Both the position numbers and the translations under genes were made by a program. DNA of 64,000 nt, from assembly GCF_000165425.1 (NCBI RefSeq), contig NW_001799233.1, forward strand, positions 65,256-129,255. Reading direction: 5' to 3'. The stretch is from Paramecium tetraurelia (Eukaryota > Ciliophora > Oligohymenophorea > Peniculida > Parameciidae). The notes beneath the pieces were generated by a model, which ran no database searches, was not told the origin of the DNA, and was given only the letters and a program-made list of their open reading frames with translations. Of this stretch, positions 4,036 through 60,643 are shown piece by piece (position 1 is the stretch's first letter; every line of letters starts with the position of its first letter).

Positions 4036-4090
4036 TTAGTGATTTTATATTCATTAATCATTTACTATAAATTTTAAATAATAAGCATTT

Positions 4091-4492
4091 ATGAAAGCTG
4101 AAGAATAAGCAGAAGAGTTAATACTATGTCCTTAAGGTTGTGGAAGGAAATTCAATAAGGATAGTTTACTTAAACATTATAAAGTTTGCAAAGATGTCTT
4201 CTAATAAAAGCGAAGTGCATTCAATTCTTAATTAAAAAGAGTGGGATTCGATTATTTTGTTGAAAATAAAAAGAATCTGCCTCAATTCTCTCCACCAAAA
4301 ACTAATAAGTTAAAAACAGAGATTCTTCCTTACAGAAGTCCTTAAGTTCCATCAAAATATAATTAGGTTTTAAATGCAAAAAAATTCTGCAAAGGATGCT
4401 TGAGAGAATTCGATTCAAGAATAGCTGATGAACATATTTAAAAATGTGTAAAGAAGAACTAATAGAACAATCCATTCGCAAAAATTATTTGA
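4091..4492 (+). CDS. Small C2HC zinc-finger protein (ZC2HC1-like)
   Basis: Single-exon gene of 133 aa, 55 bp downstream of ARMC9 on the same strand. Two zinc-finger motifs are visible: CPQGCGRKFNKDSLLKHYKVC near the N-terminus and FCKGCLREFDSRIADEHIQKC near the C-terminus, both of the zf-C2HC type of ZC2HC1 proteins. The linker is rich in Lys and Pro. These fingers are common in ciliary and cytoskeletal proteins of protists, but the function is not known. Glutamines are mostly TAA/TAG. Confidence 0.75.
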
Positions 4493-4559
4493 TAAAAATT
4501 AAATTTCCTAATATTATAAGATTAATTTATGTATTTTACAAAAAATAGGTTAAAATGTT

Positions 4560-6357
4560 TCATTTCTTAAAGAAGTTAAAACTCTTCTAAGCCTTGCTAT
4601 CAATTTTTGAAGGAACTTTGATTTTTGAACCTGAAAAATTTCTATTTGACTCATCTGATTATTCTACTATGACATTTTATTAAGTTATGCATCTGTCTAT
4701 ATGCTTATTTAACACAGTATTATTTCCTTTGCAATCAATTTCTTTATTACAAATTGGACAACGGAAGGACTTCGGCTACGCTTACTATTTTTACTAATAT
4801 TATTATTGCTGTTATTGGGATTAATGACTTTTACTATTAACTCCAGATAAGATCTAATTACTAATACTACTAGCCTCATCGTCACTTAGGATATCAGGTT
4901 TAGATTGCTCCTGCTATTGAAGTGACATTTTATTGAATGAGTCATTTTCCTCAGTAATTTGATGAGACTTTGAACCTTTAATGGACGGCACTAAATTTTC
5001 TTAGCCACTTGATTTATCAATTTGTCTTTTGAAATAGGTAGATATGGATTATTTTTGAATTTATTTTTCATTTGCAAGTGAACTCATTTTTAACCCAAGT
5101 AATCTAATTGGTTCATCTAATTACATAATTTTGAGTAATTGTTTTCCATATATAGCAATTTATTTAGCTTGATTTGTATATTAATTAAGTTACAATGATT
5201 TACTCCGAATTTCAAATTTGGATGTTTTGATAATCAAAGTCAGATGATTTCCTACTTTTTCTTCTGATTACATTTCTTCTGCTAGTTTTTCAGCAATATA
5301 ATCAACTTTATCTTCGAATTCTCTTTAAGTACTTATGCTAGAAAATGTTCGCTGACAACTTATACTATGTTAATCTTCAAATTCTACATGATAGTTCCTA
5401 GCCACTCCCCAACAAGAGTAAAAAATGTATTCAAATGTTTTAGGAGTAAAGATAACATAGAGTTCATCAGCTCTGTCCCTGACATCCTTACAAGTATTAA
5501 AGTTTAAGCCACTTAATATTTACTCAGTGATATTTCCAATTCCAGGAATCTTTCTTATAGGCAATTTTTCTAAGAAATTGAGAACTGCTGTAGCAGATTA
5601 TTCAACAACATGCAACCCATTGGGTTTATTAATTTCAGAGGCAAGTTTAGCAATCATTTTATTTGGGCCAACTCCACAACTGGCTGTGAGTTGTGTTGCT
5701 AAGAGGATATCCTTTCTGATGTTTTCACATAATATTGCTGGATCTTCTTGGGAATTATTTATATATTCTGTAAGATCTAAATTAGCCTCATCCAACCCCA
5801 TAGATTCTAGATTATCGTCATATTTTTTAAGGATAGTCATAAAAATCTAGTGTAATGCAATTGAATACATTTGAAACACTCTTATATTTCTCGAAATGAC
5901 AAGGAATGAAGATGATTTCAGGACATAGCTTCTTTGCAACAAAACCTGGCATAGCAGATCTAACACCAAATTTTCTAGCCACATAATTTGCAGTGGAAAC
6001 GATAGTTTAGCCTACAGCAACAGGTTTGTCTTTAAGTTCTGGCTTGTCCAATAGTTCACAAGCTACGTAAAACATATCCATATCAAAATGCGCCCAAATT
6101 CTATCTGTGTTAATTTAAAATTCTTTCACTTTATTCTAAATAATCTCTTTGGTTTCCTTGATTTTTTGTTCATTATTTTTATAGCTGTCCAATTCCATCT
6201 ACATCTTATTCACTTTTTACAGAACTTATTATCGTTTCTCCTATTATCTTTTGTAATATTCAGATCCTCGAGTGGCATCATCTATCACTTATTTAATTTA
6301 ATCTGCTCCTTCCACACCTGCTTTGTTGCCATAGTAATGAAAAATAGGTTCATTCAT
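4560..6357 (-). CDS. POLK: DNA polymerase kappa (Y-family translesion polymerase)
   Basis: Y-family (DinB/Pol kappa) translesion polymerase, 591 aa after one 22-nt intron. The N-terminus has the kappa-specific NKAGVEGADQ (human NDNKAGMEG). The palm shows AHFDMDMFYVACE with the first metal-binding Asp and an aromatic steric-gate position, then ARKFGVRSAMPGF. The second acidic motif is SMGLDEANLDL, followed by TASCGVGPNKMIAKLASE and the helix-hairpin-helix LPIRKIPGIGNI. The C-terminus carries a UBZ-type zinc finger (CPICNKEI...LNKHIDRC), a ubiquitin binder that recruits such enzymes to modified PCNA, and ends in QKSFNFFKK, a PIP-box-like PCNA-binding motif. An in-frame ATG also occurs 15 nt upstream at 6372. 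Confidence 0.95.
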
Positions 6358-11988: not shown

Positions 11989-14900
11989 ATGGACCATTAA
12001 AGTATGATTAATGAAATTCAGCAATGCTTTTAATCTTCAGAAGCTTATGCAAAAGTAAAAAAATACAAAGACACATTCCGTGAATAACAAAGGTATTTTG
12101 TATTTTTATTTGAGTCAAATATCGCCAATTATTTGTGAGGCAATATGTGCAACGATGACTGAAGGCACTCCAATGAGCAAATTACTAGCCTTGAGAGTAT
12201 AACATTATCCTCTAATTCTAGCTTTGTAAAGAGATGATGGATTTAAAATCAGATACATTTAGCAAACAAGTCAATGATAAAATTCTTTCGAAAATGAAAT
12301 AAATTGCAATATTTAAAAAACATGATCAAAGCGATATCAGAGGTAAATATTTATTCTCTGACAATCCATGTATATATTTATTAATAAGCAAGCCAAGGAA
12401 ATAGCATCAATTGGAAATAGCTTAATGAAATTATGTCTAGATTGCATTAAAGTTTGGGCATTTTGGTATCCTTAGAGCAATTTCAAAGTTGTCTATGATG
12501 ATTTAATTACATAAGGAGTTGCATTTCCAGTAAAATACACTTACTTCAAAGAATACAATGACAATCCATCATCTTTGAATTAATCATTTATTCTATCTTC
12601 TCACTCATCTAAAGAATAGCCATTAAAATAATCAATACCTAATTAAAAAACCTATTAAGATGGACAATAATTGTTATAACAAATTAACGTTTAAATTGAA
12701 AATCTAGTTAAAATAGTATAAGATTAAGAATCGAATGAGACTATCAATAACCTAAATCAAATACTCAAAAATAATTTAGAACAATACAATGGATAAATAG
12801 AATAGGTTTTAATCCAGATTATTGATTCTGGTGAAGAGAATTTAATTAATGATTTAATTTCTAAATAGGAAATGGTTCGTGAAATCAAACAAGATTACGA
12901 TGATTATCTGATAAAAAAACTTGATTGGAATAAACTTAATTAAAAATTCAGAAGATTCACTTAATCACCTATAACTCCTGAACCCGCTTAAGCAATCATA
13001 CCTACATAATAAAAATAGCAATAGAATCAATAATAAATCTAATCTATTAAATAACCTGTAACCACAAAAGCAGATCAAACTCTATCTGTCATTCGAGAAG
13101 AAACTGTTTAGGATGCCGATCAAATAGATAAATCAAATATTCTATAGGAGGACAATAAAGTAATAATAATTCAGAATATTAGATATCAATGAAATATTAG
13201 TCTCTAGTATTAAATTAGACTGAAAATATTAAACCAGGTGCTTAAACCCTTCAATCAGAATTACATAAAAAAGATAAATTACAATAAGATAATAAAAAAT
13301 AGATCCATAAATCTTTATCTGTAGAAGTCAATGATGATATTAATTTAAATGAATTTTAAGCTAAAATAAATAAATAAACTGACTATGCTAGTACTAAATA
13401 AACGAAATAAACATCATAGCCCCTTACTAAAAGTATTGAATAATAGTCTCCAAAAGCAATAGTTAATTAAGTATTAAGTAACGTATAAGCAAACCAATAA
13501 AATTTAAATTCAACCCTACTCTATAGCACAATTAATAATCAGTTGTAAACCAATCAAAAAGAGCAATAATAAAATTAAGAAGAAAAAGAATTGAATAATT
13601 AAAAAAATAATTTTAATAATAAGGAATAATAAAAAGATCAAATATAGTAAAATGAGAAGGAAATAATTGAATAATAATAAAAGTAGTAGTAATAGTAGTT
13701 AGAATAATAATAGTAGTAATAATAATAATAGTAATAATAACAATAATAATAGTAATAGTAACAGTAATAATAACAACAATAATAACAGTAATAATAACAA
13801 CAATAATAACAATAATAATAATAATAGTAATAATAACAACAATAATAATTATAATAACAACAATAATAATAATAATAATAACAACAACAACAACAACCAT
13901 AATAGTAATAATAACAACTATTGCAATAATAGTAATAGTAATAATATTTTAATTCGAATGCAAAAAAAAATAATTTTGATGAATAAGTTAGTCAGTTGAA
14001 ATAAGGATTAAAAATAGAAGGATTTGATTAAATTTATAGCTTTTCTTAAAGATAATCAAACCTGAATGAAAAAAAAAATATGAATTTAAAGTAAATTGAT
14101 ACTTAAGTCAAATTAGAAGGTTAGATTAATTAAATTTAGGACACTTATATTAAGTAAAAGCAAATGTAAAATTTCAAATAGGACTAAGCAAATAACAGTT
14201 CAAGGATTTCTTAGCCTTCATTAAGTTTAAGTTAGGTATCGTAAAGAAAACTAGAACACTCTTAATAATAGCATCGAAGCTCATCATAAAAACGAGAAAA
14301 TTATAGTGTGAATGACAAAATAGAGTTGGAACTTTTAAAGGAGGAAAATCAAAAATTGAAATAATAAGTGAATTAGATTATTGAAAAATATGAAATCAAA
14401 TAACAATAATATTCCTAAGAATTATAAGACAAAATTAACGAGATTTCTAGCTTAAAATAGGTAGTCTATGCTAAGACTGATAAAATAGATAGTAATAATT
14501 AGTTGATGAAATAATTATAAGATTTCTAAAAACTTTAATTGGATTACTAAACTCTTGACTACAAACACAACCAATTATAAAAACAATATGACAATCTGAA
14601 TGAATAACATGAACAAATTTAGAAAGAAATGTAATTAAAATCAAAATAAATTGCATTATAAAATAAAGAAATTTATGAATTAAAACAAATTAAATAATAA
14701 GAGTTGGAAATTAAGAAGAGAAGTGAATCTGTAGGTTAATACTCAAAAACTGCTTAGCAATTTCATCCATAGAATTCGATTCTTAGATAAAGTATCTGTG
14801 ACGAGCCTATTTTGACAGAAAGCCAGAAAAGGATTATTTTTCCATTCACAAATCCATTTGAATACTATAGGGACCGTTTGAAGAATAATTAGAAAGGTCA

Positions 14901-15663
14901 GGTCTCTTCAGCTTATTCTGAATGGAAAAACTTAAATTTAGACAATTAAAATATCGAAAATTTAAAATAATCAATTTTATCTAATTAATCAATACTTTTT
15001 GCATGCAAATAATTAGAAATTGGATGTAAACTAGATAAATTGAATGAAAGAAAAATGATATTGCATCTTTTTTTTTTGAATTCCAATAAGCTTTCTGGTT
15101 ATAAAATGGATTTAAATTTTTAATTTGTTAATGAAATATCAACTGGAATTCTAAAGAGATAATCAATATAATTATATTAGGATTCTTCTGAAGATTTAGT
15201 AATTGAATTCAATATTAATTAATTGCCTTTTTCTATTTCTTCTGTAAACATAAAGCTTTAAACAACAAAGACAATCAATTATATATGTTATTTGCCAATT
15301 TCGTTGTTTAGTTGCTTTCAATTTTTTAATTTATCTTTAAAAGAATATCAATCATATTGGCAAATAGCAAAAAACTGTGTGATCAGAAGCCAAGAATTCG
15401 AATACAATTTCAATTACGTAAGCAATGTGTTCAGAAAGAACATTGTAGTGATAGAATTAAATAGCCATAAAAAAAAGGAGTTTTTTGCTGGGATTGATGA
15501 AATAAAATATGGATCCATCATATAGTGTGAAAACTCAAATTATTTGGTAAGATACATATTATAGCCAAATAATAAAATGCTAATTTAGATATGCCACTTG
15601 AATGGAAGATAGAACATATCAGATTCTATCTTAAACATTTTAGTTTTTCTACTTTCTAGTTGA
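11989..15663 (+). CDS. Clathrin-adaptor-like protein: VHS-like domain, long poly-Q linker, adaptin-ear-like domain
   Basis: Large protein of about 1,184 aa after four introns (22, 25, ~50 and 23 nt). Residues ~1-150 look like a VHS/ENTH-type helical solenoid (MINEIQQCF; IICEAICATMTEGTPMSKLL; NSLMKLCLDCIKVWAFWYP). Next come coiled-coil segments and a Gln tract written almost entirely as TAA/TAG (about 13,660-13,950), then more coiled coil. The C-terminal ~220 aa resemble an adaptin appendage/GAE ear (MDLNFQFVNEISTGILKR; YWQIAKNCVIRSQEFEY). This order (VHS, disordered linker, ear) is that of GGA/Tom1-type sorting adaptors at Golgi and endosomes. GAT and clathrin-box motifs were not identified, so the call is by architecture only. 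Confidence 0.6.
13660..13950 (+). repeat. Trinucleotide (TAA/TAG/CAA)n tract encoding poly-glutamine
   Basis: Almost uninterrupted TAA, TAG, CAA and CAG triplets inside the VHS/ear adaptor frame, giving well over 70 consecutive or nearly consecutive glutamines. In a standard-code reading this stretch would be all stops, or poly-Asn/Ser in another frame. Confidence 0.9.
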
Positions 15664-20167: not shown

Positions 20168-23100
20168 ATGAAATAAAACATTCAAAAACCCAAGTTTAGT
20201 CAGGTCATAATGAATTAATATTTTAAAGAGAAAGCAGAGCTTGATAATTCTTTTAAGTAAATTTAAAAAAGCATTCTTCAAAAATTTGAGGAAAAATTAA
20301 ATGCCAAAAACATTTTTTTATTGTACTTTTAAACTTTAACTAATCTAAATGAATATCGATATATGGGATAAACATTACATGTAGAAGATGAAATAAGGGA
20401 GTATTTATAAAGTCTGCCTCTTCATACCTTTTTCCCTTAAAGGATTTGGGATTTTAGTTTTACAAGTAAAATACGTTATTAATTTAGAATAATTTCTATA
20501 AAAGTTTTAATCTCTCAAAGAAGATGAAGTAATTAGAGTTGTTTTTTTAATTAGGAGCATACTTTAAGGAAGATTTAATAAATAAAATTATTAATGGATT
20601 AATGTGAATCAGATCTAGGTTGGTAGTATCAAATTTCCATTTTAACATGACTTTGAATTAGACTTTGCTGTTGAAGGCCGAATTACAATGATGTTTTAAG
20701 TGTTTCCCAAAAAATATCCTCTTATGGATAATTCAGATCATCCAACTTAATTTGATTTTGTTCATGAATTGATATTTGTCGAGTTGAATGAAGGTACGCA
20801 TTAGAAAAACCCATAACCATATGAAAAATACCTTAAAGCTCAATAAAGCAAACCAAACTTTTTTACCGATATGAAATTTATTTAAGAAAATGGAGATAAA
20901 AAAAAAATTAAGTACTTAAGGGTTGGGGAAGCCAGTGAAAATCAATGCTTATTGTTGGGACCAAGAATATTTAGACCGTTATTATGTTAGGGGAGATAAT
21001 TTAATTATAATTATAAGTTAAACCTATGGATGACGATAGAAGATGAAGAAAAATATTATAAGAAATTAAAATAGATAGAAGAAATAAGATAAAATAATTA
21101 GATTATAAGAAATTATTGTTTTTTGCCTTCTTCATAATAATTATTAACAATCATAAAAAACATCCCAAATTTTAGAGTAAAATTAACTGAAGAGTAAAAA
21201 AATGTGATTTCATATGGAGGGGATGCTTTAGTAATTGGTAGAAGTGGAACAGGTAAGACAACATGTGCACTTTTAAAATTATTCTCTACAGACATTTTGT
21301 ACAAATTGAGAATCAAATTAAATTAGATAAAATCATCATCTACAGATATTATATTATCTTAATAAGATTAAAATTCTTAATTAAAGACAATCTTTGTAAC
21401 TGCAAGTCCATTATTGGCCTGTTAAGTCAAAAGATTATATGATTAATTAGTCAATAATATCCAAAATGCAATTAATACTAAAAGACAGAGGACAAAATAG
21501 GATTAATAAATGAATCCTTAATCCTAAAATATTGATTTAGAATAGAGTACTTTCTAAATAATTGAAGCACTTTAATAAAATGATGAAGATATTGATGGTA
21601 ATAATCAATAAGAAACTTAGAACGATAATGAAATAGAAGATGAGGAGATCAATGAGTTTGAAAAAGAGATGGGAAAATTTAATAAATTTAGTGAAATTCA
21701 ATAATTCCCAGTTTTCTTAACACTACGTAAATTATTGGCTCTTATTGATTCCTCCCTTCTCCATTCTTTTTTTAAGGTCTTTGGGGGATATTAAAATAAA
21801 TTATCTTAATGGCATAATGAATCTTCTGGTCTTATGACACTGGATAAAAACTAAACTGCTTAGCCATTTAATGAAGATCTTCTATATAAACATATTAGTC
21901 TAATTGACAATCAAGAATTTATTGAAACCAATTTACAAGAAGTCACATTGGAGGTTTTCGAGAGAGTGTTTTGGCCTAAGATAGTAAAAGATTTGAAGTA
22001 GGAATATTATGATGTATCAACTTTTGATCCAACTTTGGTTTGGAGTGAAATTTGCACAAAAATCAAGGGTCATGAAACCTCACATGAATATCCCGATAAA
22101 TACATGAATTTTGAAAATTATTCTTATTATCATAGAGTATTATCAGAGGTATAGACAAAATTACTTTATAAAGCATTTGAGACTTATGAGAGATTAAGAC
22201 AAAGTTATGGATATTATGATTTGTTAGATATAGTAAATCATATTAACTATGAATTATCTTAAGGGAATGATGTGATTGAGAGTGTTCATTATTTAATGTT
22301 GGATGAACTTCAAGATGTTCCAAGAGCTGTTCTGGTTTTATTGGATAGAATGGCAGAATTTGGTTTATTTTGTTGTGGGGACAATGCTTAGAACATAGCC
22401 AAAGGAATAGGGTTTAAGTTTTTTGAAGTATAAGATTGCATCCTAAATTACAGAGGTAATCAAAGGAGAAGATAATCAAATCTAACATTATTTGATTTAA
22501 ATATTAATTTTAGATCGCACAATTAAATTCTTTAGATTGGCCAACTCCGTTATCAGAGTCTTAGAGATTTGTTTCCCATACAAAATTGATAGATTAAAGA
22601 AGGAAACATCTGATTTAACTGGACCAAGACCTGTTGTCTTATAAACAGACTCACCATAAGACCTGTTGTCTTACATTTAAGAATTTTTCACAAATGACCG
22701 CAAAACAGTTGAGTTTGGATGTAATTAAGCTATCATCGTTAAGGATCAAGAATCAAAGGAAAAATTACCTTAAGAACTGTAAAATGCCTTGGTTCTTACT
22801 ATTTATGAAGCAAAAGGATTAGAATTTGATGATGTAATTCTGTATAACTTCTTTAATGATTGCACTACTTCTGTAGATGATTGGAAAATCTTGAATGAAT
22901 TCGAGGTTAATTCAGTCTATATGTCTGAGGAAGGATTTAAAAATTTCTAAACAGGTATTCTATATTAAATATTTATAGTCCATCAATCTGAAATTGTAAC
23001 ATCTGATTACAATGCTTAGAACAAATTGATCGAAATTAAATAGCTTAAGTTAAAAGAAAGGGACTAAAAAAAAGCAAAATCCTAGGATGCCTTTTCGGAA

Positions 23101-26100
23101 TATATTTCTTTATGTTAAGACTTGAAATAACTGTATGTGGCTATAACCAGACCAAAGAAAAGGTTAATAATATTTGATTAGTCTATTAAAAAACGAATTA
23201 TAATGCAATCTATCTGGGAGAAATTGGATGTGGTAAATATTGTTTAGAAAAAGGATATCTAGGTTTCTGACACTCAATTCATCCTTGAACATACTGTAGA
23301 TAATTAAGCTAATTGGAAAAAATAAGGATACAAAATGTTTAGACTCAACAATTATGATTAAGCAGCGAAGTGCTTTAAGTTTTCTGGTGATGAGGAACTA
23401 GCGAAGAAATCCAAAGCCTATTTTTTGGCCACTTAAGGTAATATTTTTAACGAGAATAAGGAGAATTATATTGCAGCAGCAAAATTATTTGAACTAGATT
23501 AACTTCCCTTTAAGAGCAGCATAATGTTATTTTTCAGGTAAAGAATATATCAAAGCTTATGAATAATATAAAAAAACAGATTGTAAAAGTGAAACAGCTG
23601 AGTCTGCATATTTTGCTGGCTATTTTGAAGAGGGTTGCAAACTTATTTTTTTAAATTAATGATATTAGAAGAGCATTAGATTGCTATAAGAAAGCCAATA
23701 ATTGGCAGAGAATTATTGAATTGTTAAATTTGCATAAAAATGAATTTCCAATTGAAGAAAGAATGGCTTTCTTGAATAAATTCTTTCCTAGTTTTCTTTA
23801 AGAAATGACAGATTAGATTGAGTAATAAGAAAAAGAAATGGAGGAGTAGTTTTTAAACGAAGAGCCATGCATAATCTAAGAGGATGTTATAGATTAATCT
23901 TAAAGTTTCTAAATTGAGAATTCTTTGGTAAATGAATCGCAATAAGTGGAGAATGCTGAAAATAATCTTGAAACACCCTAAGTGAGCATAGTAAAATAAG
24001 ACAAATAAGATCTAATCGAAATTGATGACTCAGAGTCTTTTTAAGTTCAAAATGAGGAATCCTTTGATCATCTCTCAATATTTGATCCAGAAGATGAATG
24101 GTTGAAAAATAACTAAAAATCCTTAATCAGATCCATTGCTACTTCAAGTGTTGAATCACAGTTTTCAAATGTTCTTTTATTGAATTAACCATCAAATGTT
24201 TCACTCTTAAAATCCAGATCTAATATCTTTATTAAGAATAATGTTTTACAATAATTGGTGTAAAAATTTTAATTCTTTTCTGATGAATTCAAGACTCACA
24301 TTGAAAAGCAGACACATAAGGCTACTCTATTGTCAAACAGAACTGGGGATGAGAAAGAGTTTGATCATATGATCAATTTCCTATATGATTTAGATAATAT
24401 AGATATTGATACCATCTACTTGATTCTAGATCTATTAGAATAATTCAAAAGTTATAAATTATGCATTTATGTTTGCAATTAATTCAAATTGGCCTAGTAT
24501 ATAGGTAGATACTTAGTATCATTGGCTTCACTCTACACTCCATTAACAAGGACCCTCTTGAAAGATAACTATTAGATTATTATAAATAAACTCTATAGAA
24601 AACAAATATTATAGTAAGCAGCAGTTTCCTAATTGGCTATTAATAATATATTAGAATCTATAAATCCTTTGTTCTTGTAATTTAAATTTGAAGAACAACT
24701 CAATTTATCAAATAGTTTCGGAATTACTTGTTACAAAGAATTGATTGGCTTAGGCTATTGGAAGACTGTCATTTATCAACTAAATTATGAACACGCATTC
24801 AATTTGTGCAAATCATTTAATAGTTATTCAGATATTGTTAATGTAATAGAGAAAGTCAAGGAAAATAGAAAAAATAAATTGCTTAGTGAATAGGAATAGT
24901 TTAACTAGAATAAATATTAATATTTTATAGACATTTAAGATGCTCTTTAAAAAAAACATTCAAATTTCAACCCAATATTTTCAACTTCTATTAAATATTT
25001 TGATAATAAACGATAATTAACCTAGGATATTATAGAAGATATTATTAAAAATAGTCAACTATAAGATGGTTCAAATCTAAATTACACTTAATAATTGAAG
25101 TAAATAGAATCAATAATTCTATCTCATTTAATCTTAGAAATAAGTGCTACATAAGAGAAAAAAAAAGTAGATCTATCCTAACTTGTTGAAATTAAGATTT
25201 ACTTTTTAAATCAGATCCAATTATTTTGTTAAAATTCAAATATTATTGATTCTTTCTCATTCCTGTATCAGTTTTCATTACCTTAAGGAGAAATCATGGA
25301 TCATTATTCTTAATATACCCTCGTATATTTAACTTCTGGTTTAATTTCATTTTTACACTCATCATAAAAAGAAGTATAAAAGGATTAAATTTAAATATCA
25401 TAATAGGAATTAAAATTTATTGATATTGGATTTGAATATGTTTTGACTCCTTATCATGTGGTTCTGAAGGCTATTTATAAATCCTTTATACAGAGTCTCT
25501 CTGATCAATTCTTCCAATTATCGGAGTCAATTAAAACTTATTACCTTATTTATGAGAAAATTGGTGAAAAATAGTAATTCCCTTAAATTGTATATAGAAA
25601 TCACTTTTTGCCAGTCTTTTAACAATTGTATCACTTAGAATAAAAACAAAAAAATGTATTACCTATTATTTTTCTTCCTAAAACAGTCAACCCCTAAAAA
25701 TTCAAAAATTTCAATGATTAACCAATTAGAAATTTGGAAATTGAAAGACATTCATCTTCAATTTTAAATTAAATAAAATCCCTTCATTTATTAGATTTTA
25801 CTAAAATATTAATCAAGACTAATATTAGAAATCCAAATCTACCCTCTTAAATTAAATAATTCCTTATAAATGAAAGCATTGCACTACTTCAAAAGTCATA
25901 AGATAAATTGAGCCATCAGAAAGTAATTTTAGCTATAAATATGTTAAATTATGTCAACGAATTACCTTTGGCTATTTTTACGCTCTAATAAATGAAGAAG
26001 ACTATCTTGACTAATCCTTATATTAAATATATGGAATTCCTAGAATGCTAAGAATACAACATTACTGATGATCTGTTTAATTGCTTTGCAGAATTCAGTG

Positions 26101-27252
26101 CTGATCTTTAGAATTAATTATTCTTAGATGAATGGCTCTATCACTTAATAAGGGTTGGATTAACAATTCTGATTTCAATTCTAGAAGAGAAGAAGTTATA
26201 AATATATATACCTTATATCTACGTTGAATTTGTAAAAGAGGTTGAAGATCATAAAATTCAAGCTCCTATATTTAAGATTTAAAATGAAGAATTACTTGTA
26301 GAGTATTTATATCTTTTAGGATAATTCCTAGATAATTGCAATTCTGAACATTACGAATATCACGCTAATTTATTGCTTATCATTTTCATTATCAATTTAC
26401 CTGTTTTAACAAATGAAGTTATCGAATAAATAGCTAAAATGATAGAATTTGATTCAAAATATAAGTTTTATTAAAGACTTAAGGTGATAATATTGAAAGA
26501 CCTATAAGTGAGGTAAAATGAGTATATTAAACAAAACCACTCATTATATATAAACCATTACTTAGACTTGCCAATTACTAATCTCTAGATAGTCAATAAG
26601 TATCAATAAAATTAGCTTGAATAACTTTATAATACTTGTTTATAAAATTGGGAACAATATTAAAATACATCTGAATCTATAAAATAGAATGGATAAAACT
26701 TAATTAGAAAATGGTTATAGCATAAATAATTTATAGCCAAATAAAAATTTTTACAGCAGTCTATCCCCAAATTTTAATTATAAACTTATATTGTTAAATT
26801 TTAACAGTTTTACTCATTGAATCTTAAATAACTTTATAAAAATTTGAATAACAAAGATATCAAAATAGAAAATAACATTAAAGAAGCTTTTGCCATTTAA
26901 GAGTAAGACTTATTTATATTTTAGGGACATCTTAAACCAAAGACATGGAGCAGTTGATTCTATAGACCTTCATTTTTGTAATTCATTAATAGAAAAGCTT
27001 TCTTAATTGAATCTTTAAATTCTGAAGGGAGTTAATGTGAGTTAATAATTAATTGAATTATCAAATGAATTAGTTGGTTGGAAAGAGAATATCAAATTGA
27101 ATTAAGACCTATAAGATGAATTATTGGCTAGAAATAAAGAGTTATTAGCAATAAAATGGAAAAACTTGAAATCAGGTATAAAATTAAAGAAGAGAGTTGT
27201 AAAAAAAGTAGAAATGCAAACTATTTAAGAAGAGGAAGAGGAATAATAATGA
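20168..27252 (+). CDS. TRANK1-like UvrD-type helicase protein (with apparent frame breaks)
   Basis: Large protein (~2,340 aa) of the TRANK1/lupus brain antigen type: a UvrD/superfamily-1 helicase core in a long helical scaffold. Seen: Walker A VIGRSGTGKTTCALL (~21,225), Walker B region LMLDELQDVPRAVLVLLDRM, GDNAQNIAKGIGFKF, NFRSHNQIL, TIYEAKGLEFDDVILYNFF and YVAITRPKKRLIIF. TPR-like repeats follow (RAAQCYFSGKEYIKAYEQYK). Two 22-nt introns were placed (20,471 and 26,916); a 24-nt one near 22,953 is optional. At about 22,530, 23,510 and 23,650 the homologous frame changes by one extra base with no plausible intron; the three shifts sum to zero. Either sequence errors or a decaying copy. Function of the family is poorly known. 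Confidence 0.8.
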
Positions 27253-38356: not shown

Positions 38357-41300
38357 TCATATTCTTCTTGATTGAATGACTTTAACAGCCTTTTTGACAA
38401 CATCTAAAATTACTGTTAAGTTTAAGGATTTCAATTTCTCTTCTGCTGCTTATTTATTCAATCCCAATCCTCCAATCATAGGTAAGGCAGCATTAACAAT
38501 TGCTGCAAAAGTACCTGGTATAGCAAATGCTTAAACTCCGATCAGTATGAATGCCAATACAATGACTAAGTATACTATTAAAACAATAAGTCCTTTGATT
38601 AACATTGGTTTAGAAATTCCTAAATATTCTAAGCTTAGGAACATAGTTTAGACTGAAATTTCTTGCATGATTTCTTTAAATTCATAGAAATCTATCATGC
38701 AAGTCGAGATGTTTACTTAATCACCCTTGATAGTAACTAACACCTCTCTAAATTTATGCTCTGTAATTTCTATGTTAATTCTTCTTAAAAATTCAATCAC
38801 ATCATTAGCTTTAACTTGTCTCTAACCATTCTTATCCAAAACTCTAAACATATCTTCATATTATAATTCTCGGTTGTCATTTAATTTACTCATAACTGAA
38901 TTCATGTATTGCATAGTTCTAACTGTATTTGGATTGACTAAAGAGGCCATCTTCTCTTTAATCAATTATTGAGGTGATTACAAACCTACTTAAAAGTCTT
39001 TCATTAAGTTAATTAGAAGCTAACTATTTGACTGAGATATTTTCATGACTTAAAAGAACTCTGATGTAACTTCATTGAATTTCTTATATTTAATGGCAAT
39101 GATGGCTTCGATGCACTTAACCAATATTTGTAAATCCTTTTCTTATTTTTGTCCAAACATAGGTTCTAAGACTGGCTTAACAGCTTTTAGCAATTCTCTC
39201 TCATTCATTTCTTTTGCATCATCCAATGACTTAATCATTTTTTATGCATTGGATGCAATCAAAAACAATTAGGCCAATGGGATATTATCAAACTTCTTAT
39301 CATATAACTGTTGATTGCTGAAACACCCTTTCTAGATTTACTATGGCAACTCTTTCAATTTTTCGATGTCTTCAGTTTAATAAAATAGGAATATCATTTT
39401 AATGATCTCTCCAATTTCTTTGTAATTAGACAATAAGGTGGATATAGCTTTAAGGAACTTTTCTCCTTTAATATCTTTTGGATCTGATAAACCACTGAAC
39501 ATAATAATGGTACCCTCGATAACTTCTTTTTAATCTTTCAAAGCTTCAATCTTAGTGATTTCAGATATAAATTATTTCAAAATCTTTTGTTCTGGGTCTG
39601 CATGAATTTTGTTATTATATAATAATTCAAGTAAACTTTGAATTATTATTTATTGAGGAGGTGGAAGTTATGAAATATCAAACACTTTCCCTTTTAAGAA
39701 TTCAAAGAATTATTAGAGTTGACTTTCTTAATTTTGTCTGCACCACGCCAAGAATGCCTCCTTATAAAAACCGATATTCTTTTCTGTAATGGCTGATTCG
39801 GAATTGTTATCTTTGCTGCTAACCTCATAAAATTTGTTTAACATAGATGAAAAGTCTTCTAGATTAGCTGCTTCAATAAAATTTGAAGAGAAATTAGTGA
39901 ATTAAGTGAATGGTTCTTTGTTCTTTTCTATAATTGAACCTAGCCATAATATTGGATACAATAACACATTCATAAGTTTGACATTATCAACATCGCTAAT
40001 AGTAGGAAGATTTGATACATGAGCAATTGAACTCAAGGATACTAGAATGTTTGAGTATTTTGAGAATTATCCTAAGTTATTTTTCTCCATAATTTGATAA
40101 GATTTTGAAATTAAGACATTTATGTTTTTAGAATGATCTACTTCGATGATAGCTTTGGCAAGATTCCATGCACTTTTATTTCTTTCATCTTATAAAACGT
40201 CAATTTTATCTTCAAATTTTGCAAAGTTAGCATTTGATTTATCACCTTTAAATAACAATTACAAAATAAATTGGATAACAAATATTAATTATTCTTGTCC
40301 TTTTCTATCTATATTGAATACTTTAATTAATATTTCTAAGAATCCACTTTATTAATTATCTGCTAATACTTCAGTCTTTCCTTCGAATACAAAATTTAGA
40401 TATTGAATCAGTTTATTGGTACTCTCCTCTGGAAACTCTTCTTTATCCTTGATGAAAGTATTCATGAGTGCAGTTTCAATAAACTTAATCAAGTTCTAAT
40501 TCATCTAAGTCTTGAGTATTTATTGGAATGATTAAGATGATACTTGTTATCTGTCTAACAAAGGACTTCTTAATCCAAAGTTCTTGAATTAAAGCAATAG
40601 CTCAATAATAAAAGTGCTAATCATTCTTTCAGATAACAATCCAGTCTCTACACGTTCTTATTCTCTACTGAATGCAATCAGTGCGTACCATGCTTCCACA
40701 TCACCCAAGAAGCATCTTATCATCAATTTTAATGGTGATTTAATTGATGACTAGATTTCATTACAACCTTATATTAATTCATCAATTCCTAAATTCAAGA
40801 GATGACTATTGTTTTTAAATTAAACTTGATCTTCCTAGCTTAAATTTTCATATTAATCTCCTATTGAATAATACAAATAACATGCTGGTACTCTGGTAGC
40901 TAATGATGAGAATTTTCCAGAAGCTTTTGAGTTTTCTAATTGAACTCTGACTAACATTAACATAACTGCATCCATTATTATAAAATCATTTCCCCAAGTT
41001 TTAGTAATAAATTAAGTGTTCATAGCTTTTGGATTATAAAATAGATCTACTAAAGGCTTTAACTCTTTTCTCTCTGTTTCATTTAAAGTTAAACCCAATA
41101 AGTTATCGATCAACTAATTTAAATTTACAGGCATTTTTTGTTTAGTTCCTCTAAATTTAGGTTAAGCTCTTTATTTGCTATCAACAAGAGAAAGTGCATC
41201 AAAGAATTTAAAGGCTGTTTCTTTGTTTTATTAATTCTATTACTATGGAGGGTTTTCATTTTCCTTTGAAGCAACAGTGTATTGTCCAGCATAGTATTGG

Positions 41301-44300
41301 ATTAATGAAATCATGATTTGCTGAATTTATTCTGAAGATTAATCACTCTCCAAAACTTCAATTTCACTTTGTTTAAATATTTACTTTTTAATCAATTCTA
41401 AAGATTTGTCCCAATATTTAGACCTTACGTATCCATATTGGGAGATATTCAACTGGGTCAATTTATTAATCAAGGAATATTGCAGTTATAATTTCTATAA
41501 TTCTTTTGGTAAGCTTTTAGCCATTTCTTCAAAGTATTCTTTTTGATTAGTTTTGTTGGATTTGCTATTGATATAGATCATTGAAATTGCTGGAATAATT
41601 CCTCTTTCATCATTTTTAAACAATGAAGTCCAAAACTAATTGTAATTTTCGAATTCAAGTTTATTGTCTATTTATCCATTATTATCTGGTAAAACTCTGT
41701 AAAATACTTAGCAATATTCTTCATATTATTTGTTGAAGTATTCAGAAAGATCATTAAAACTATCACTTTTTTAATTAGTGTAATTAGACTTTGTACCTCT
41801 TATTTCTAATAGAGGATCACTGATTCCAGGATATAATATTCCTTCCATTTTAACAAAGTCAATTTGTTTTTGAGATCTTAATTTTGTAGTATCGAATATT
41901 CCTAAAGTTAATAATTTCACCAGTGCTGGTTTGTTCAAATTAGCAAGATTTTTGTTATCATAAAAGTATAAATATTTTTCAAAGACAGTAAAGGCCATAT
42001 TGATGCAAAATTAACCTTTTACATATTAAGATAGAGCTGAATCCTTTCTCTTTTTTATTTATCTCATTTATTTTAATTAATAAATCAGAATAATTGATGA
42101 TAACGGGAAATAGTATTGCACTTTACCTTTTGCACTTCCTTTTATAAAGGCTTCAATCACATTATACTAACTCAAAGTTAATTTAAGGTTATTCAGTAAA
42201 CTTTCAATCAATTCAGGAGTCAGTCTTTCATTTTATGAATTCTTTAAAGTTTCAAATTCAATTATTTTTATTAAACTTAATGCATCATATTCAAAATTAT
42301 TGAATTTATTCATGAAATCCTTGATCACCTATTAGTTACGAGTTGACTCTGATTACAGTATCTATTATAAGCATGGATTAGAATTTTGATTCTCATTAAA
42401 TATTGCAGTAACTAATACTGGATTAATGCCAGCTGCCAATTATAATAGACTGAAAGCTTCTTAAACATCTTAGTCGCTAGTTTAAGCTACTTAAAGTAAG
42501 GCTTTTTCAACAGATTTTTAAGATAATCTCTCGAGAGTGTCGGATCTATTTCTAATTTATTCTGGTTATTTGTCTTTATACCAATCAAATTTATCATATT
42601 TACCAATTCCTGCAATAGCTGCTGCAAATATTGCTGCTGGTTCTTATTGATCAAGTATTTGAATTCTGTTTAATAAATATAAGAAATTGGTTGGTCTAGG
42701 ATGAGAGAACCAATGTAAGACTTCTAGAACTTCTGTTTGTCCAAGATCATTTTATTATCCTTATTGTTTCTTATTCTCTTTATCTTGTTTGAATACTTCC
42801 GCTCTTTACTCAGCCAAAGAATTAAAATTATCTTACAATTCTTTCCAAGATTCTCTTTTTACTAGCTGTCTCTTAAATGCAAAGAAGACTTTGAATAATC
42901 TTGAAGCAGTGGGATTTTGTTCCATTTTTAATTTGATTGTCAATGACTTCGAATCCATAGAATTTGACTCTAGAATACCAGACAAATCAATCAAAGGACT
43001 TACTTCCTTGATTCCGAATTTCTTTTCTATTAATTAATGAACTTTTGGATCTGATAACAATTTTTATTTATTTTCTGACACTAAGGCAGATACTAAAAAT
43101 TATGCAAATTTGATTGCTTCTTCATCTAAGTCAAAGATATTCACCAAGACATCATAATCTGGTTTTGGAGTCATCAAACTGAATAATCCTTAGATAGCAT
43201 TTTGATTGGGTTTCTCCGAACTCAAAACAGTACTAAAATAGGTTTAAAGGAGTTCCATGAAACAATCCAAATCTGAGCTAATGAAATATTTCAATTATTA
43301 AGTCGCCCAAATTAATTATTTGTAAGAACTATCATTTTCATTGACTGCTTATTGAGTAACAAAGCCTCTAACAATAGCCAATACTTTCTTGAAAAACTTT
43401 CTAAATTTATTTTCTTTGATGAAATCGCAATATTTAGTTAAGAAGGCCAACACATTTTCATAATTCTTATCCATTAATCCAGATATGAATTTCTAGAGAT
43501 CATCGGTCTAGTTTTGATATCGATCAGCAAATTAAGTTCCTTAGGGTTTTGGATATAATTAAAATAAGATATCTTTAATTGCTTTATCTCTAATTGAAGT
43601 ATTCTGATTAAACATCATTTTAACAAACTTCTCAGAAAATGGTATTAAATCTTAAAGACTTTTCACCTATTCATAGTTCAATTTTGAATTTTAGTTAACT
43701 ACAACTGGAGAAAACTCAAACTTTTTTTTGTCACTATTCTCTATTTTAAATTTATCTAATTCGTATTTAATGTAATTGAATATGTCGCTATATAGAGAGG
43801 TGCTTATTGCTTGTCTTGTTTGGAAAATTTAGTTAATAAATAAGTTCTGCAATTTCTAGAATTAGTAGGGTATAGTATTAGGCAATTGGAAGGATGCAAT
43901 ATTTTATTCAACATCGATTACTTTTTGAAGTTCTATTTATATTTTGTTAAGATCAATGCTCTCATATGATTTGGGATGATAACTAATAAAGTATTTAATA
44001 GCTTTTGATATGCTAGATGCATCCTTGAATGAAAGAAGTACTAGCAAATTCTTGAATGGCTCAACCTTCAATCCATTAAGTAAAGGGGAATTTAAAGTGT
44101 TATTAGATAGAACACCTTACTACTATTCTAAAATCATGTATAAGTATTCTAATTTCAGAGGTATTTGGTTGGATAATTCAGCTAAGAAATCTGCCTTTTA
44201 TTGTTTATTTGATTTTTCATCTCTTAGGGATTTCTTGAGGAAAGTAAAGAATGTAACTTTTTCAGTTTTATAGTAATTTACTAATTGATCCTCATTATCA

Positions 44301-47300
44301 TCTGGTTATTGATTAACATAAAGTTGAAGCTTCTAATCATTATCCCATATTTTATTAATTTCCTCCTTCAATCCTTTTGGATCTCTATTCATTTCATCAT
44401 AGAATTATTTACCAAACATTTACTTTTTTGCCATTGCCAAATAGAGTTTAAATTTTGAGTCATCAGTAACATAGTCCTTCAAACTTTTATCTAATATTTT
44501 TTCAATTGCTAAAAATCCATTGAATACTCTAAACATTCCTTTGGAAGAAAAGATTATTTCCAATAGTTTATCAACTAATCCTTTGTACACGTATTTATAT
44601 TAGCATAAGAATATCAAGATATCTTCGAAATTAGTTTTTGAAAGCAATTCAAAAATGAATTTGACTTGGAACATATGGCTCTCTAAACTTTTTGATGTAA
44701 TTTTAACTAATTCATAGTAAATAGCATCATGATAAATGGTATCTTAAATTTCATTTCTTATGGTTAAAATTAATCCGATCACAGCATTTTCAGAGATCTA
44801 GAATGCTAATGAGATTAATTCAATTATGTCTCTATTATTTAATTTGTCTTTTCTTTATATAATCTAGGTGGCAGGTTTAGAGAAGATCTAATCACTCCAT
44901 GCGTCCGCCTAATTTTAAGCAGATTTACTTTCACTTTCACTATTATTTTTGTCTAAAATGCTTGATGACCATAAAAATCTACTGGATACAAACAAGATGT
45001 CAAATATTAATTCATGAGACTTACCTTGTAAATTGATAGGTAACTCTTATTTCCAATTTTTAGTACATAATTACAAAGCCGAAAATCCAACATTTAATAA
45101 ACCATTATGTTATTCCAATAATTTCTCGAAATACTCTTCATTTTCTCCATCATCTCCTGGATAAATTTATGAAAATAGTTTCACTAAATCTGAAAGAGGT
45201 GGTTTATCATTCTTTAGGAATTTGACAGCAAAGAGTATGAATATTTCAAATTTGGTTTTTAGTGTTTGATCCATATTGTCCTTTAAGAAATATTTATCAC
45301 ATAGTCTAATAATGACTCCTGCTTATTCAGTGGGAGTCAATTACATCTCTTTATCAATAAATAAGGATTATTGCTTAGAAAATAGGAGTTGATAAACTGC
45401 AGCTAAATCTTGATCAATGTTAAATAAGGATAGTAATTATTTAATTAATCCTTATTTTGCTTCTTCAACATTGTTATTTTCACTTAAGGATTGAGCATAT
45501 TAAAATATCATTTCTAAAGCTTACAAAGGAATTGGAGAAATGGCAACAAAGTCTTTGAGGTTTTCAAATAGTTTTTTAACCTAAACTAATATATTTTTAG
45601 GTGTGCTATCCATCATTAAATTAAATAGGGAAAGCATTACACTTTTGAATGCCTATTGACTTGCTCCTTTGTCTTCTATCTATGTTTATAACATCATGCC
45701 ATCAACAACAGCATCAAGTAAAAACACACTAATCATAGGTAAGTGAACTTGTAATTCCCTTCTCTACTCTTCTGGAGTCTTTTTAGAAAATACCCGACTC
45801 AATTTAACAGATGTTGCATAAATCCATTTAACAATTCCAGCTGGTATTTTGTTTTAACTTTAAATTTATATTTGATTCGCCAATGGGTCGATAATTTCCT
45901 CAAACTTTACAAAGTTAACCTTAACTAATTATTCAGCTATGATTTCAGGTACTTCGAATTAATCCTTTGCGATTCTTATAAACTTCTCACAAGCCTTTTG
46001 AATAAATTTATCCTTAATTTGTTTGAAATTGATTTAATCCTAATTTAAATCAGTAGATCCCGCATTATCGATCATCCCTTAAGTTAGAATACACAATTCA
46101 TTGAGTTCTTCACCAAAACCTAGGTTTTCAGCCATCTCTTTAGCTGAATCCATATTGGTTGAATTAATGATAGTAGTTGATAAATCTGATAACTTTTAGA
46201 TTTCTTTTATTATAGCTGCAGCCAACGATCCAAAAGTCCTCAAGTAGATATCATTAATTATTTTCTTGATTTCATTGCAAGCTTATTCATAGGTTGACTT
46301 GATCTAAGATATCTAAGCAGCAACAAAAGCAACTAAGGACAAGGCAGATGATGAGTACACGAGATAAAAATTAGGATTGATTATTGCTCCCAACAGTAAC
46401 CATACGATAATTAATCCAAAATAAAAGAATACACTGAATGCCAATATTAAGAATTGTATCCATTAAAACCAATTGAAATATTTCATTAATTTGTTCTAGT
46501 ACAACTTAAACTCCCACATATAACCAACTTCATCTGGGAAATATGATAATAAGTATTTAACACTCTAGAATAAGAATGTAATGATCGCATAATAAGCCAA
46601 TAACACACCTAAGGCTAAGACCCAATAATCCAAAATGCCGAAGTAGTTAGTTATAGTCCATGGTCTACTTAAAGCATCATCCATGAATAGTAAATTCTTT
46701 GGATCATAAATGGAGAAGGGTGAGTAGGATGTGTTGATGATGATGATGAAATAAAGCAATGGGACAATTGTAATTGCAGTAACCAAAAAGTTGCCTAACA
46801 CCACAGTTATGTCTGATAATATCCAACCATTCATGTAAAGGGCATCAAAATAATCCATCAAGACATTTTCATCTACTTCTTCTCTATATGAATACTCTCT
46901 ATTGAAGATTCTGGTTTTGTAGTTAAAAATCAAGCTTTGAATAAACATGAAGGGATAGTTGTAATAAAATACGTTATTATTTAATTTTCTAGAACCCATA
47001 GTTTTAATTGGGTTTTATTAGAATCTATTTATTTCTGTGCTTCTTCTCAATAGAAATACTGGTTATTCAAGATAATAATCTTCAATAAATGGAATGTAAT
47101 GAGTGCATCTACCCAAAAACCTAATGTACCATGATTATCTTTATTGGATTCCAGTTTTGACTTTCCTTAATTCAAATGCCTTGAGATCTGAAATCAAGAG
47201 ACCATAATCATTTGAGATATCTTTAATATTGAATTGTTCAACCCTTAAAGTCTTTCCGCAGAATTTAATATATGCCTTTTCAAGTTTATCAGATGGAACA

Positions 47301-49773
47301 ATATCTGCAGGAATTCCTGTTAATAAACATTAGGTAGCCATAAAGAGTTCTAATGAATTTCCAGATGTTTTTTCTTCATCACTAAGTTCTTAATAAGATT
47401 TAGCATTAGGATTCAATTTGATTTTCGACAATATAAGCACATCCTCTTTCTCTGCAAATTCGAAGCCATATTATTCCAACAACTGTTCTTATTAAGATAA
47501 TGGTTCAATTGTAAGTTTGTTAAGGAAACAGAATTGTTCATATTGTTCTTTAACTTCTTCCTCATCTATATATAAATAGGATTTGTCCAAAGTTTGTTTA
47601 TAATATTATTCTGTTTATAATTAATTACTCTTTTTGAATAAAGTCTTGCAAAACATTTTTGGAGCACTTTTGAAGGATGATTATCCAAAGACATAAAATA
47701 CGTATGATAATACACCTAATAAAATAGGTGGATCCTTTTTAGAAGCGAGTTAATCTAATTTTTAGATCATTCTTTTTGCAATAGCTGCTAAATTATCTTT
47801 TGTACTTTGAGTGGTTGTTGCGCTATAATTTTAAAACTATGAAGAGGTTTCCAAAACATAAGTTTCTAGTCCTTGTAATGAAACAATCAATACAAATATA
47901 CAAACAATACCAAATATTAATGAGGACAACAATGATAAGGCGATTGCTGCTATGAAAAATGGATCATAGCTTAATGGTTAATAAACAATGTTATTAGCAA
48001 TATTTTGAATAGTTGACCAATTCTCATACTTTCCTCTTTGCTTTTCTTCCAATGGATCAAAACCAGGATAAGTAAGATTTTCATTTAGTGTTTCATTTTA
48101 CTTGACAAAATTATCTTTTTAAATGAATATAGCCTCTCCATAAGTAGTATTAAAAGTTCTCTTGATTAATTCTTAAATTTTTAATGTTTATCTTGCATTC
48201 AAAGCTGGATTCCAGGGACACATTCCTGGATCTGTGCTTACTTAGAAATGAGTAAATGTAGGATTCAAGAAAGTAGCTGAAAATGCAGATAACCACCATG
48301 GTTAAGAGGCTGCATATGATGGGTTACTGAAAAAGGACCAAAATGTACTATAAGTGTGTTGTAGTAAGTAGTGACCACCAACATCAAGTCTTACGGCAAC
48401 ATCTGCAGATCCACTATTATTCATAAATTGTTGTATTTTAAGGTGGGATTCTTAATCAAAATTTAAATTTCCAGACTTAAAAGGATAAGTCTCAAACCAT
48501 TCAAACTCATCAACTCCATCGATTAAGGGTTTACCTATACCAAAGAGGATGTTGGCATATATTGAACTTGAATTACCAATTACATTAATCTTTTGTTATG
48601 TATTGCAGGAGTCTTTTTCGCATAAATCCATTTAGCCAACACATGTCTTGGTAAGCATTTCCTGTTAATTTGCTTCTAAATAACAATTTTCTTAGGCCGT
48701 GTTTAAAATTTAATATGCGGTTGTACAAATAGCTTGTGATTATGATGAATAATTCAAAAAGTATGATTTAGTTGATTAAATGATGATATCTCCACTTAGC
48801 ATTCTGATGTTAGCCTCTGTGACTATGAAATGATTCAAAAACAAATTTCCTGTTGATTCTGAATGAAATATAAAATTTTGTGTTTTTATATTTCTCATAT
48901 TGATCTGCATTTTTGCCTTGGGCTCTGATGTCGCGTTGAACAATGTATTAACTGCTAATTCATCTTATCCAAATGCCATTACACATTCCGTTTCATATTT
49001 GCACAGTATTTTTAAATTATCAATTTATTTTGGCAGTTACAAATCAATTATACAAGTCCTTTGCTAAACGTATTTAAATATAGATACATCAGGATTTGGA
49101 TCATAAAATGTGAGATTAGCAACACCTGTGTCTAATATTTCACCCATAATTCGGAAATCATCTGAGCCATTCACTTACTGGCTCATACTTCCTTTTGCTT
49201 TAAATGAAAACTAACATATGTTTTTGTTAATATACCTTTAAATAGTCATCAGACTGGCTCACATTCAAAAAACAATTTCCAACATAGATATCAATATTGC
49301 TAGTATCCTTCAATGCACTCCAAGATGAGTTTTTCACTGTTACAAAATATCCCCATGCAAAAAATCCTACAACAAGACCTATAAATAAAATTTATAGTAT
49401 CAGTCTTGTCAATCTTCGAAGTAAAATCATTCCAGAATATATACTAGAATAGTGATCAATTTATACCTTTCTAAGCGACTCTCATTCTCTGCTTTGTTTG
49501 TTTTATTGCCTTCGCCTTATTTTTGTTGCTTGAATTGAATCATCCATTAATTCAATTAATTCTTGCTGCCTACAAGTTAGGCTTTTATTTTTTAATCGTC
49601 TTTCTATAAGTATATATTAAATCTCTTACTCCTATTTCCCCATAATTTATAAGTTCAAGGTCTTCTCTAGGGGTTGGCTTTTCTTTGTAACTTAATAATT
49701 CGTATTCAGCATATCCGCTTGGATATACCTTTACGGAAGTACCAGGAGTCTAGTTTTGTTCTGTGTTATTCAT
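38357..49773 (-). CDS. Giant multi-pass membrane protein with alpha-helical scaffold
   Basis: One reading frame of 11.4 kb, ~3,780 aa, with only three introns found (26, 23 and 25 nt), all in the first ~550 bp; the length then closes. The ATG is 49773 (MNNTEQNQTPGTSVKVYPSG). Membrane segments: ~residue 105 (ILQILFIGLVVGFFAWGYFV), ~595 (FFIAAIALSLLSSLIFGIVC), ~975-1110 (IVPLLYFIIIINT; YWVLALGVLLAYYAIITFLF; FLILAFSVFFYFGLIIVWLL) and ~3,710 (LIVLIVYLVIVLAFILIGVQ). Between the first two lies a probable lumenal/extracellular domain with conserved-looking Cys (CFLNVSQSDDY; TCVGQMDLCEKDSC). From ~1,110 to ~3,690 is a Leu/Phe/Lys-rich helical array resembling HEAT/ARM-type solenoids. No known family; function unknown. 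Confidence 0.75.
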
Positions 49774-58948: not shown

Positions 58949-60643
58949 TCAAATATTACATTAACAGAGATTAAAAGATATCTATGGATTTGTTTGTAAT
59001 ACTATCATTTATTGATTTTGAGCATTCTAAATATATTTTTGGTTATGCAATTATTCAATACTTATTTTTTTATTCAATTGAGGAACGGTTTATATTTTCT
59101 CATCCGTTTCCAGAATCATTTTTTTACTTGAATTAATTGTGAATAATTCATCATTGTGGATCATTTACAAACATTTTTTGAATTCTTCAAACTAAATTTC
59201 ACCATCATCATTTTCATCAAACACACTTATTATAGTTTCAATGTCTTCTAATTATAATTGATTATTTAGGTCTATTTTCTTTAATAATGCAAATAACTCT
59301 TGCTTATCTAATGCATTGTTGTTTGAAGTATCATATTTTCGAAATAATTACCTTGGACTCATATTGTACTATTATATTAAATTTGATAACTCTTATAATA
59401 TTATCATATGTTTTTTTTGCAAAGACCTTTAAAGCTTTGCTTTTTTTGGTGGTGAAGGATATAAATATTGTTTGAATTCTTCGAAATCAACATATCCATT
59501 TCCATCTTTATCAAATTCATCAAAAATGTATTTCACATCATCATCATTGAAGCTATTGTCAAGATATTAGATGAAGCACTTGAATTCATCCAAATTTAAC
59601 TATTGATCTCCAGATGTATCTACCTTCTAAAATATTTGAGTCAAAGTATCAACATTTGGAATTTTCTATTTCAGATAATTTTAAATGTAAAATAATTTCT
59701 TTTAACAATTGGTTCGTTGCATCTAGAATTTTATAAAATATTCGCTTATATATGGATGACGATATAACGTATCCCAAGAAAACCTGTTTTCTTCCTTTAT
59801 TTATAGACAATTCAAAATAAAGTCCTTACATAACTCATTCACAATAGGCTAATCCGGGAACTTCAAGTTTTAATGAACTATATTGTAAAGGAGTTCACTT
59901 TCAGACCTACCTAACCATGGAGCTTAAACATACTAGATAGTACTTACTTTTTTGATATATTATTTGATATAACATTAATCCTATACTCCAAATATCACTT
60001 TTGCTCGTGTATTATTGACCATTCAATATTTGAGGACTCATATAATATGGAGTTCCAACTTTACTCTCCATTATTTGGTTTTTATAATTACTGATCTGTC
60101 TAGCAAAACCAAAATCGCCTAATTTAAATATTTTCCTATTGTTCTCTATATGAACCAATATATTCGCTGGTTTAAGATCTCGATGCATGATTCCTTACTT
60201 TATTAGTGTAGTGAACGCAGTCAAAATGTCGATTAAAAATTGAAAATGGTCCTCATGTGTTATCTAATGAGTTTTATAAATTAATGATTCCAAATCACCA
60301 TGATTGCAATATTCTAAAATTATATAATAATTATTCTCTGTTTGTAGAACGTCAATGATCTCAATTATATTCGGATTCTTTAGACTCTTTAAAATTTAAA
60401 TTTCATTTAAAAGTTATTTTTCATCATCTACATTTGATTACATACATTACCCACATCCTTCATATCACTTTTTCTAACGAGCTTTATGGCTACATTTTAT
60501 CGAGTGTGAATGTTCATTCCTTTATAGACAGTTCCATAAGCGCCTTTGCCTAATTTTCCTTTTTTAAAATTGTATCTATATGATTCAATTTATTTTTCAT
60601 CAGTCTTGAGTTTACCCAAAGGAGGCTAATTCATTATTTGCAT
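58949..60643 (-). CDS. CDPK: Calcium-dependent protein kinase-like (kinase plus four EF-hands)
   Basis: 548 aa after two introns (23 and 25 nt); the length closes. Kinase domain (~25-290): GKLGKGAYGTVYKG, VAIKLV, IMHRDLKPANILV, LGDFGFARQI, GTPYYMSPQIL, KSDIWSIGLMLYQI. Then a linker and four EF-hands: VDTSGDQQLNLDEF, FDKDGNGYVDFEEF, YDTSNNNALDKQEL and FDENDDGEIQFEEF. Loops 2 and 4 have full calcium ligands; loops 1 and 3 have weaker ones (Gln and Asn replace the usual Gly). This is the plant/alveolate CDPK arrangement. The activation-segment GTPYYMSP recalls ULK/NEK-type kinases more than CaMK. It shares strand with the preceding kinase, with only 64 bp between them. Confidence 0.9.

Follow-up and report, generated by a model that had tools for sequence, protein, structure and literature searches.

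What kind of protein is encoded by the longest open reading frame in a 64,000-nucleotide stretch of the Paramecium tetraurelia genome (contig NW_001799233.1, positions 65,256 to 129,255 of the forward strand; hereafter the window)? We tentatively interpret its product as a giant polytopic membrane protein that serves as a membrane-anchored scaffold, with conserved ends that probably cooperate and a fast-changing cytosolic spacer between them.

With TAA and TAG read as glutamine (table 6), the window holds 135 frames of at least 150 codons; under table 11 there is no frame of 200 codons anywhere in it. The longest of the 135 (38357-49258, minus strand) runs for 3,633 codons, and on base composition alone the chance of such an open run at a given place is about 10^-28. 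Removal of three GT-AG introns joins this frame to an ATG at 49773 and yields a product of 3,780 amino acids. A crude gene finder, its codon table trained on the same frame, gave the same gene ends and the same number of introns as the manual model, and no hidden introns (GTA...TAG, 18-36 nucleotides, length divisible by three, more than 80% A+T) turned up when the main frame was scanned for them. A preliminary description of this DNA had proposed a single gene for a protein of about 3,780 amino acids with introns confined to its start. Frame and splicing bear this out, all three introns lying within the first 563 bp, and the single gene is strengthened by a relative in the same genome that has matching ends in one gene. 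The sharp contrast in intron density with the neighbors that was also claimed did not hold, as crude models give 0.26 introns per kb here vs. 0.30 and 0.29 in two long models (12368-15663 and 23763-27252) and 0 to 3.55 in the rest, many of which are doubtful. The gene and its parts, with transmembrane (TM) segments numbered from the N-terminus, are as follows.

38357..49773, minus strand: whole gene, ATG from 49773, TGA at 38357-38359, 3,780 amino acids when spliced; genome locus C161:103612-115028
49604..49629, minus strand: intron 1, 26 nucleotides, phase 0
49444..49466, minus strand: intron 2, 23 nucleotides, phase 2, shortly 5' of TM1; an intron of the same phase is similarly placed in the relative
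49335..49391, minus strand: TM1, residues 112-130, with LLRRLTR directly before it; N-terminus predicted cytosolic
49211..49235, minus strand: intron 3, 25 nucleotides, phase 0, 3' of TM1; here too, an intron of the same phase is similarly placed in the relative
47945..49334 (includes intron 3), minus strand: predicted extracytosolic domain, residues 131-585, with 10 Cys and 12 N-glycosylation sequons vs. 6.2 expected
47882..47938, minus strand: TM2, residues 588-606
46805..47878, minus strand: predicted cytosolic domain, residues 608-965, with a conserved block at 715-734
46295..46804, minus strand: membrane cluster TM3 to TM6, residues 966-1135, with a conserved block around VWLLLGAIINP (1096-1115)
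38882..46294, minus strand: middle region, residues 1136-3606, with helical periodicity; past about residue 1250 it no longer resembles the relative convincingly
38660..38881, minus strand: EF-hand-like pair, residues 3607-3680, before the last helix; first loop degenerate here
38534..38590, minus strand: C-terminal TM helix, residues 3704-3722
38474..38533, minus strand: conserved motif QAFAxxGTFxAxVNxxLPM, residues 3723-3742, overlapping a weaker hydrophobic stretch

The relative is a distant one. The genome (69.07 Mb in 231 contigs; match counts are lower bounds) was searched with two parts of the main frame, its N-terminal 1,176 and its C-terminal 2,441 residues. Besides the gene itself, these searches returned one further locus, which lies on contig C37 (best expectation values, E, 6e-16 and 6e-13). 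Reverse searches with two pieces of this relative recovered the same two genes, and its C-terminal piece also matched four places over the EF-hand part (E 0.05 to 0.4). The relative was modeled with seven introns, one exon of about 10.6 kb and a product of 4,602 residues. Introns are 23-29 nucleotides long in both modeled genes, and the two that flank TM1 are similarly placed in each gene and agree in phase (2 and 0). Basic Local Alignment Search Tool (BLAST) comparison with an initial model of the relative, identical to the later one except at the extreme C-terminus, gave two zones: residues 371-1195 vs. 615-1432 of the relative (22% identity, E 8e-39) and 3615-3741 vs. 4437-4563 (31%, E 9e-16). 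Alignments of residues 371-1247 and 3599-3780 contain 208 identities among 815 aligned residues and 54 among 181, respectively.

Similarity to the relative was further assessed in 25 segments of the window protein, each against 12 shuffles. Seven segments (starting at 151, 301, 451, 601, 901, 1051, and 3601) score far above their shuffles (z 9.7 to 36). The other 18 reach z-scores of only -1.0 to 3.9, and those segments of the middle that reach z 3 to 3.9 do so in alignments far out of register. Thus, residues from about 1250 to 3600 have changed past recognition and large parts of both ends have been kept, with about 2,300 residues between the conserved ends showing no convincing similarity. 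The best 20-residue blocks are 3723-3742 (QAFAIPGTFAAIVNAALPMI) and 1096-1115 (LIIVWLLLGAIINPNFYLVY), each with 13 of 20 residues identical to the relative; both lie in or beside membrane segments, and they are 2,600 residues apart.

Membrane segments were called by hydropathy, with peaks at residues 112-130, 588-606, 970-988, 1026-1044, 1084-1102, about 1113-1131 (weaker), 3704-3722, and 3727-3745 (weaker). Segments near both ends, as originally described, are therefore confirmed by hydropathy, the C-terminal helix at 3704-3722 lying 58 residues from the protein end, and the order of segments is alike in the relative. Sequons between TM1 and TM2 are about twice as frequent as expected (12 vs. 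6.2 in the window protein, 17 vs. 8.1 in the relative), and those in the middle are near expectation (16 vs. 19.1 and 18 vs. 19.9, respectively). Cysteine is also denser between TM1 and TM2 than in the middle (2.20% vs. 0.69% in the window protein, 1.42% vs. 0.82% in the relative).

The middle is likely a helical solenoid. Helical amphipathic periodicity is present in all six of its blocks of 410 residues (z 1.6 to 4.4, vs. 1.0 in the predicted ectodomain), and six middle blocks of the relative give z 0.3 to 6.8 (ectodomain 0.4). Proline plus glycine make up 4.6 to 6.3% of the middle vs. 8.1% of the ectodomain; in the relative the middle has 6.0 to 9.2%, with no clear drop vs. its ectodomain (9.0%). 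No clear internal repeats were found in the middle (self-alignment z at most 4.3 over 20 segments). Single-sequence structure models covered residues 640-1190 (predicted local distance difference test score, pLDDT, 40.7) and 3180-3780 (pLDDT 36.5), both too poor for a fold search. Of the 2,500-residue helical solenoid envisaged in the preliminary description, the helical character rests on the periodicity and on an all-helix but very poor model of 3180-3780.

Known families were sought in Pfam, NCBIfam, and PDB sequences, and it is in respect of these libraries and of the literature searched that we call the protein uncharacterized. The Pfam and NCBIfam scans took in the window protein after residues 1-163 and the relative after about its first 290 residues. 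No Pfam or NCBIfam model reaches its cut-off in the 3,633-residue window frame, no Pfam model does so in three pieces of the relative, and no PDB sequence matches a profile of the TM cluster at E up to 10. The empty Pfam result does not reflect the genetic code or a failure of the tool, since Pfam recognizes other frames of the same window (two kinases, a Y-family polymerase, and a UvrD helicase). Several weak matches were judged to be chance or low complexity: Fur_reg_FbpB (0.019), TPR_ZFYVE26 (0.2), and Macscav_rec (0.75) in the window frame, and DUF7688 (0.045), Col_cuticle_N (0.6), Astro_capsid_p (5e-4), DUF3307 (0.12), and CDC45 (0.81) in pieces of the relative, all below curated cut-offs. 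The same judgment was made of EMC3_TMCO1 (0.005) in the relative's C-terminal piece and of one NCBIfam match at 0.053, far below cut-off. The long middle with its helical periodicity and low proline plus glycine (4.6 to 6.3%) recalls HEAT/ARM-type alpha-solenoid scaffolds, but neither the window frame nor the three pieces of the relative has a HEAT or ARM match in Pfam at E up to 1, and clear internal repeats are lacking. The absence of a known family thus stands for the three libraries apart from an EF-hand-like pair that the preliminary description did not mention, and a match to a known channel or solenoid family, which it had named as contrary evidence, did not appear in them. Scans of viral contigs and of bacterial and archaeal genomes gave no relatives, and orthologues probably exist in other ciliates as unnamed proteins. 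Among the literature matches listed, no title or abstract beginning describes the giant protein; one candidate, PMC3710099, concerns another subject.

The EF-hand-like pair (residues 3607-3680) resembles pairs of the calmodulin type. Pfam EF-hand_7 matches the window protein at E 9e-4 (20 bits vs. a cut-off of 30), the better of the two members reaching 1e-5, and a two-sequence profile finds a calmodulin-related protein as its best PDB match (E 2e-8). All six PDB sequence matches are EF-hand proteins, as are all among the matches listed (60 of 332) for the two-sequence profile. The pair differs from calmodulin-type pairs in that its Pfam scores fall below curated cut-offs and that it makes up a small fraction of a membrane protein 3,780 residues long. 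The first loop reads DKNGQRQVKAND in the window protein and DEDGTKTISKSE in the relative; by EF-loop rules, we take it to be degenerate in the former and competent in the latter, and the second loop is presumably non-canonical in both.

As a membrane-anchored scaffold, the protein would work as follows. TM1 and TM2 would carry the extracytosolic domain, and TM3 to TM6 may pack together in one membrane with the C-terminal helix and its QAFA...GTF...LPM stretch. The middle of about 2,400 residues would be a cytosolic solenoid, forming a long closed handle that spaces or gathers partners. At the foot of this handle, the EF-hand pair may couple Ca2+ to the membrane part in the relative, a coupling that would probably be lost in the window copy. 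An array attached to a membrane at both ends, as suggested earlier, would be consistent with the way in which the two ends are conserved. If the scaffold interpretation is correct, a classic model ciliate has an uncharacterized giant membrane protein family of unusual design, in which selection has kept the membrane ends around a huge spacer that drifted past recognition. The protein would then be a suitable candidate for work on the spacing of cortical membranes in ciliates, or on what keeps a split membrane unit together. If it is merely one among many uncharacterized ciliate membrane proteins, interest would be modest; the sequence by itself is indecisive.

Several observations weigh against this interpretation. 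The N-terminal 108 residues, predicted to be cytosolic, hold 4 sequons vs. 1.1 expected, and cysteine is not limited to the ectodomain (1.40% and 2.30% in the predicted cytosolic domain). TM6 and the last hydrophobic stretch are weak, and the topology is uncertain, also because an extra hydrophobic segment near residues 927-952 of the relative passes the threshold and its counterpart in the window protein (about 657-676) does not; an odd number of membrane crossings would move the middle to the opposite face of the membrane. Inside the middle, five marginal hydrophobic peaks (1.42 to 1.74) could themselves be membrane segments. The first segment compared with the relative (1-200, with TM1) has no similarity above shuffles (z -0.4), and segment 751-950 reaches only z 2.0. 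The comparison covers two family members, and conservation of the two membrane blocks would equally be expected with a separate partner for each. Finally, structure models at pLDDT 40.7 and 36.5 give no reliable support for a solenoid or for packing of the ends.

A two-membrane tether is possible, if doubtful. The N-terminal module would be anchored in, say, the plasma membrane and the C-terminal helix in a different membrane, such as that of an alveolar sac, and the middle would span or regulate the gap. Both ends are of membrane type and conserved, the middle is free to change, and the EF-hand-like pair adjoins one anchor, all of which would suit a tether. However, a solenoid of about 2,400 residues would exceed the need of a narrow gap, and the EF loop is degenerate in the window copy.

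It is unlikely that the protein is a channel or transporter regulated through a giant cytosolic portion, resembling ryanodine and inositol trisphosphate (IP3) receptors in its working but outside that family. The conserved membrane blocks of both ends would then form a pore or path, and the two best-conserved blocks, both of membrane type, combine many small residues with polar residues and prolines. Animal ryanodine and IP3 receptors have a solenoid and EF-hands near the membrane part, so that solenoid, EF-hand, and membrane segments together recall their general plan. Against this, no channel family is among the Pfam matches (E up to 1) of the 3,633-residue frame, the TM cluster profile found no PDB sequence, and none of the 34 genome matches to RIH_assoc (PF08454) lies in the giant gene (C161:103612-115028) or its relative (C37). 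These 34 (33 if two that overlap on contig C108 are one) are likely calcium-release channels (CRCs) of an expanded family; their number is close to the 34 CRC genes reported for Paramecium (PMC3213138). The same paper mentions CRC members of 2,589 to 3,127 amino acids, and it reports six TM segments predicted in the C-terminal domain of Paramecium release channels. Hydropathy does not reveal six such segments in the giant protein, where at the C-terminus a strong helix (3704-3722) is followed by a single weaker stretch (3727-3745). Both are giant membrane proteins, but the window protein differs from the CRCs in having segments near both ends and a predicted ectodomain. Identity with ryanodine/IP3 receptors was accordingly excluded by domain, PF08454 found elsewhere serving as an in-genome positive control, and by layout.

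We also consider it improbable that the protein represents a new family of ciliate membrane machine. In such a machine, the N-terminal TM cluster would join a C-terminal helical hairpin, 2,600 residues away, in a single unit within the membrane that acts as a mechanical gate or a Ca2+-tuned pore, and a loop of about 2,400 solenoid residues, barely keeping its sequence, would close this unit. That two genes or an assembly artefact merely resemble one frame is highly improbable and was rejected: in the genomic DNA the frame stays open for 3,633 codons and the relative unites matching ends in one model, about 10.6 kb of which is a single exon, and an accidental join is strongly argued against because both ends occur in one gene in two cases.

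Other frames of the window were noted as well. A minus-strand frame at 58952-60022 resembles a calcium-dependent protein kinase, encoding four EF-hand stretches (EF-hand_7, E 6e-26) as well as the C-terminal portion of a kinase domain (E 5e-4). A plus-strand frame of 893 codons (12982-15663) has 155 TAA/TAG codons read as glutamine and is very glutamine-rich; it has no Pfam match at E up to 0.01. The region 1593-6125 encodes an Armc9 CTLH domain on the plus strand (E 1e-41) and, further on and on the minus strand, a Y-family DNA polymerase (IMS domains). Overlapping plus-strand frames at 20214-23559, perhaps one helicase gene split by introns, match AAA/DEAD models weakly and the C-terminal model of UvrD helicase at E 9e-10.

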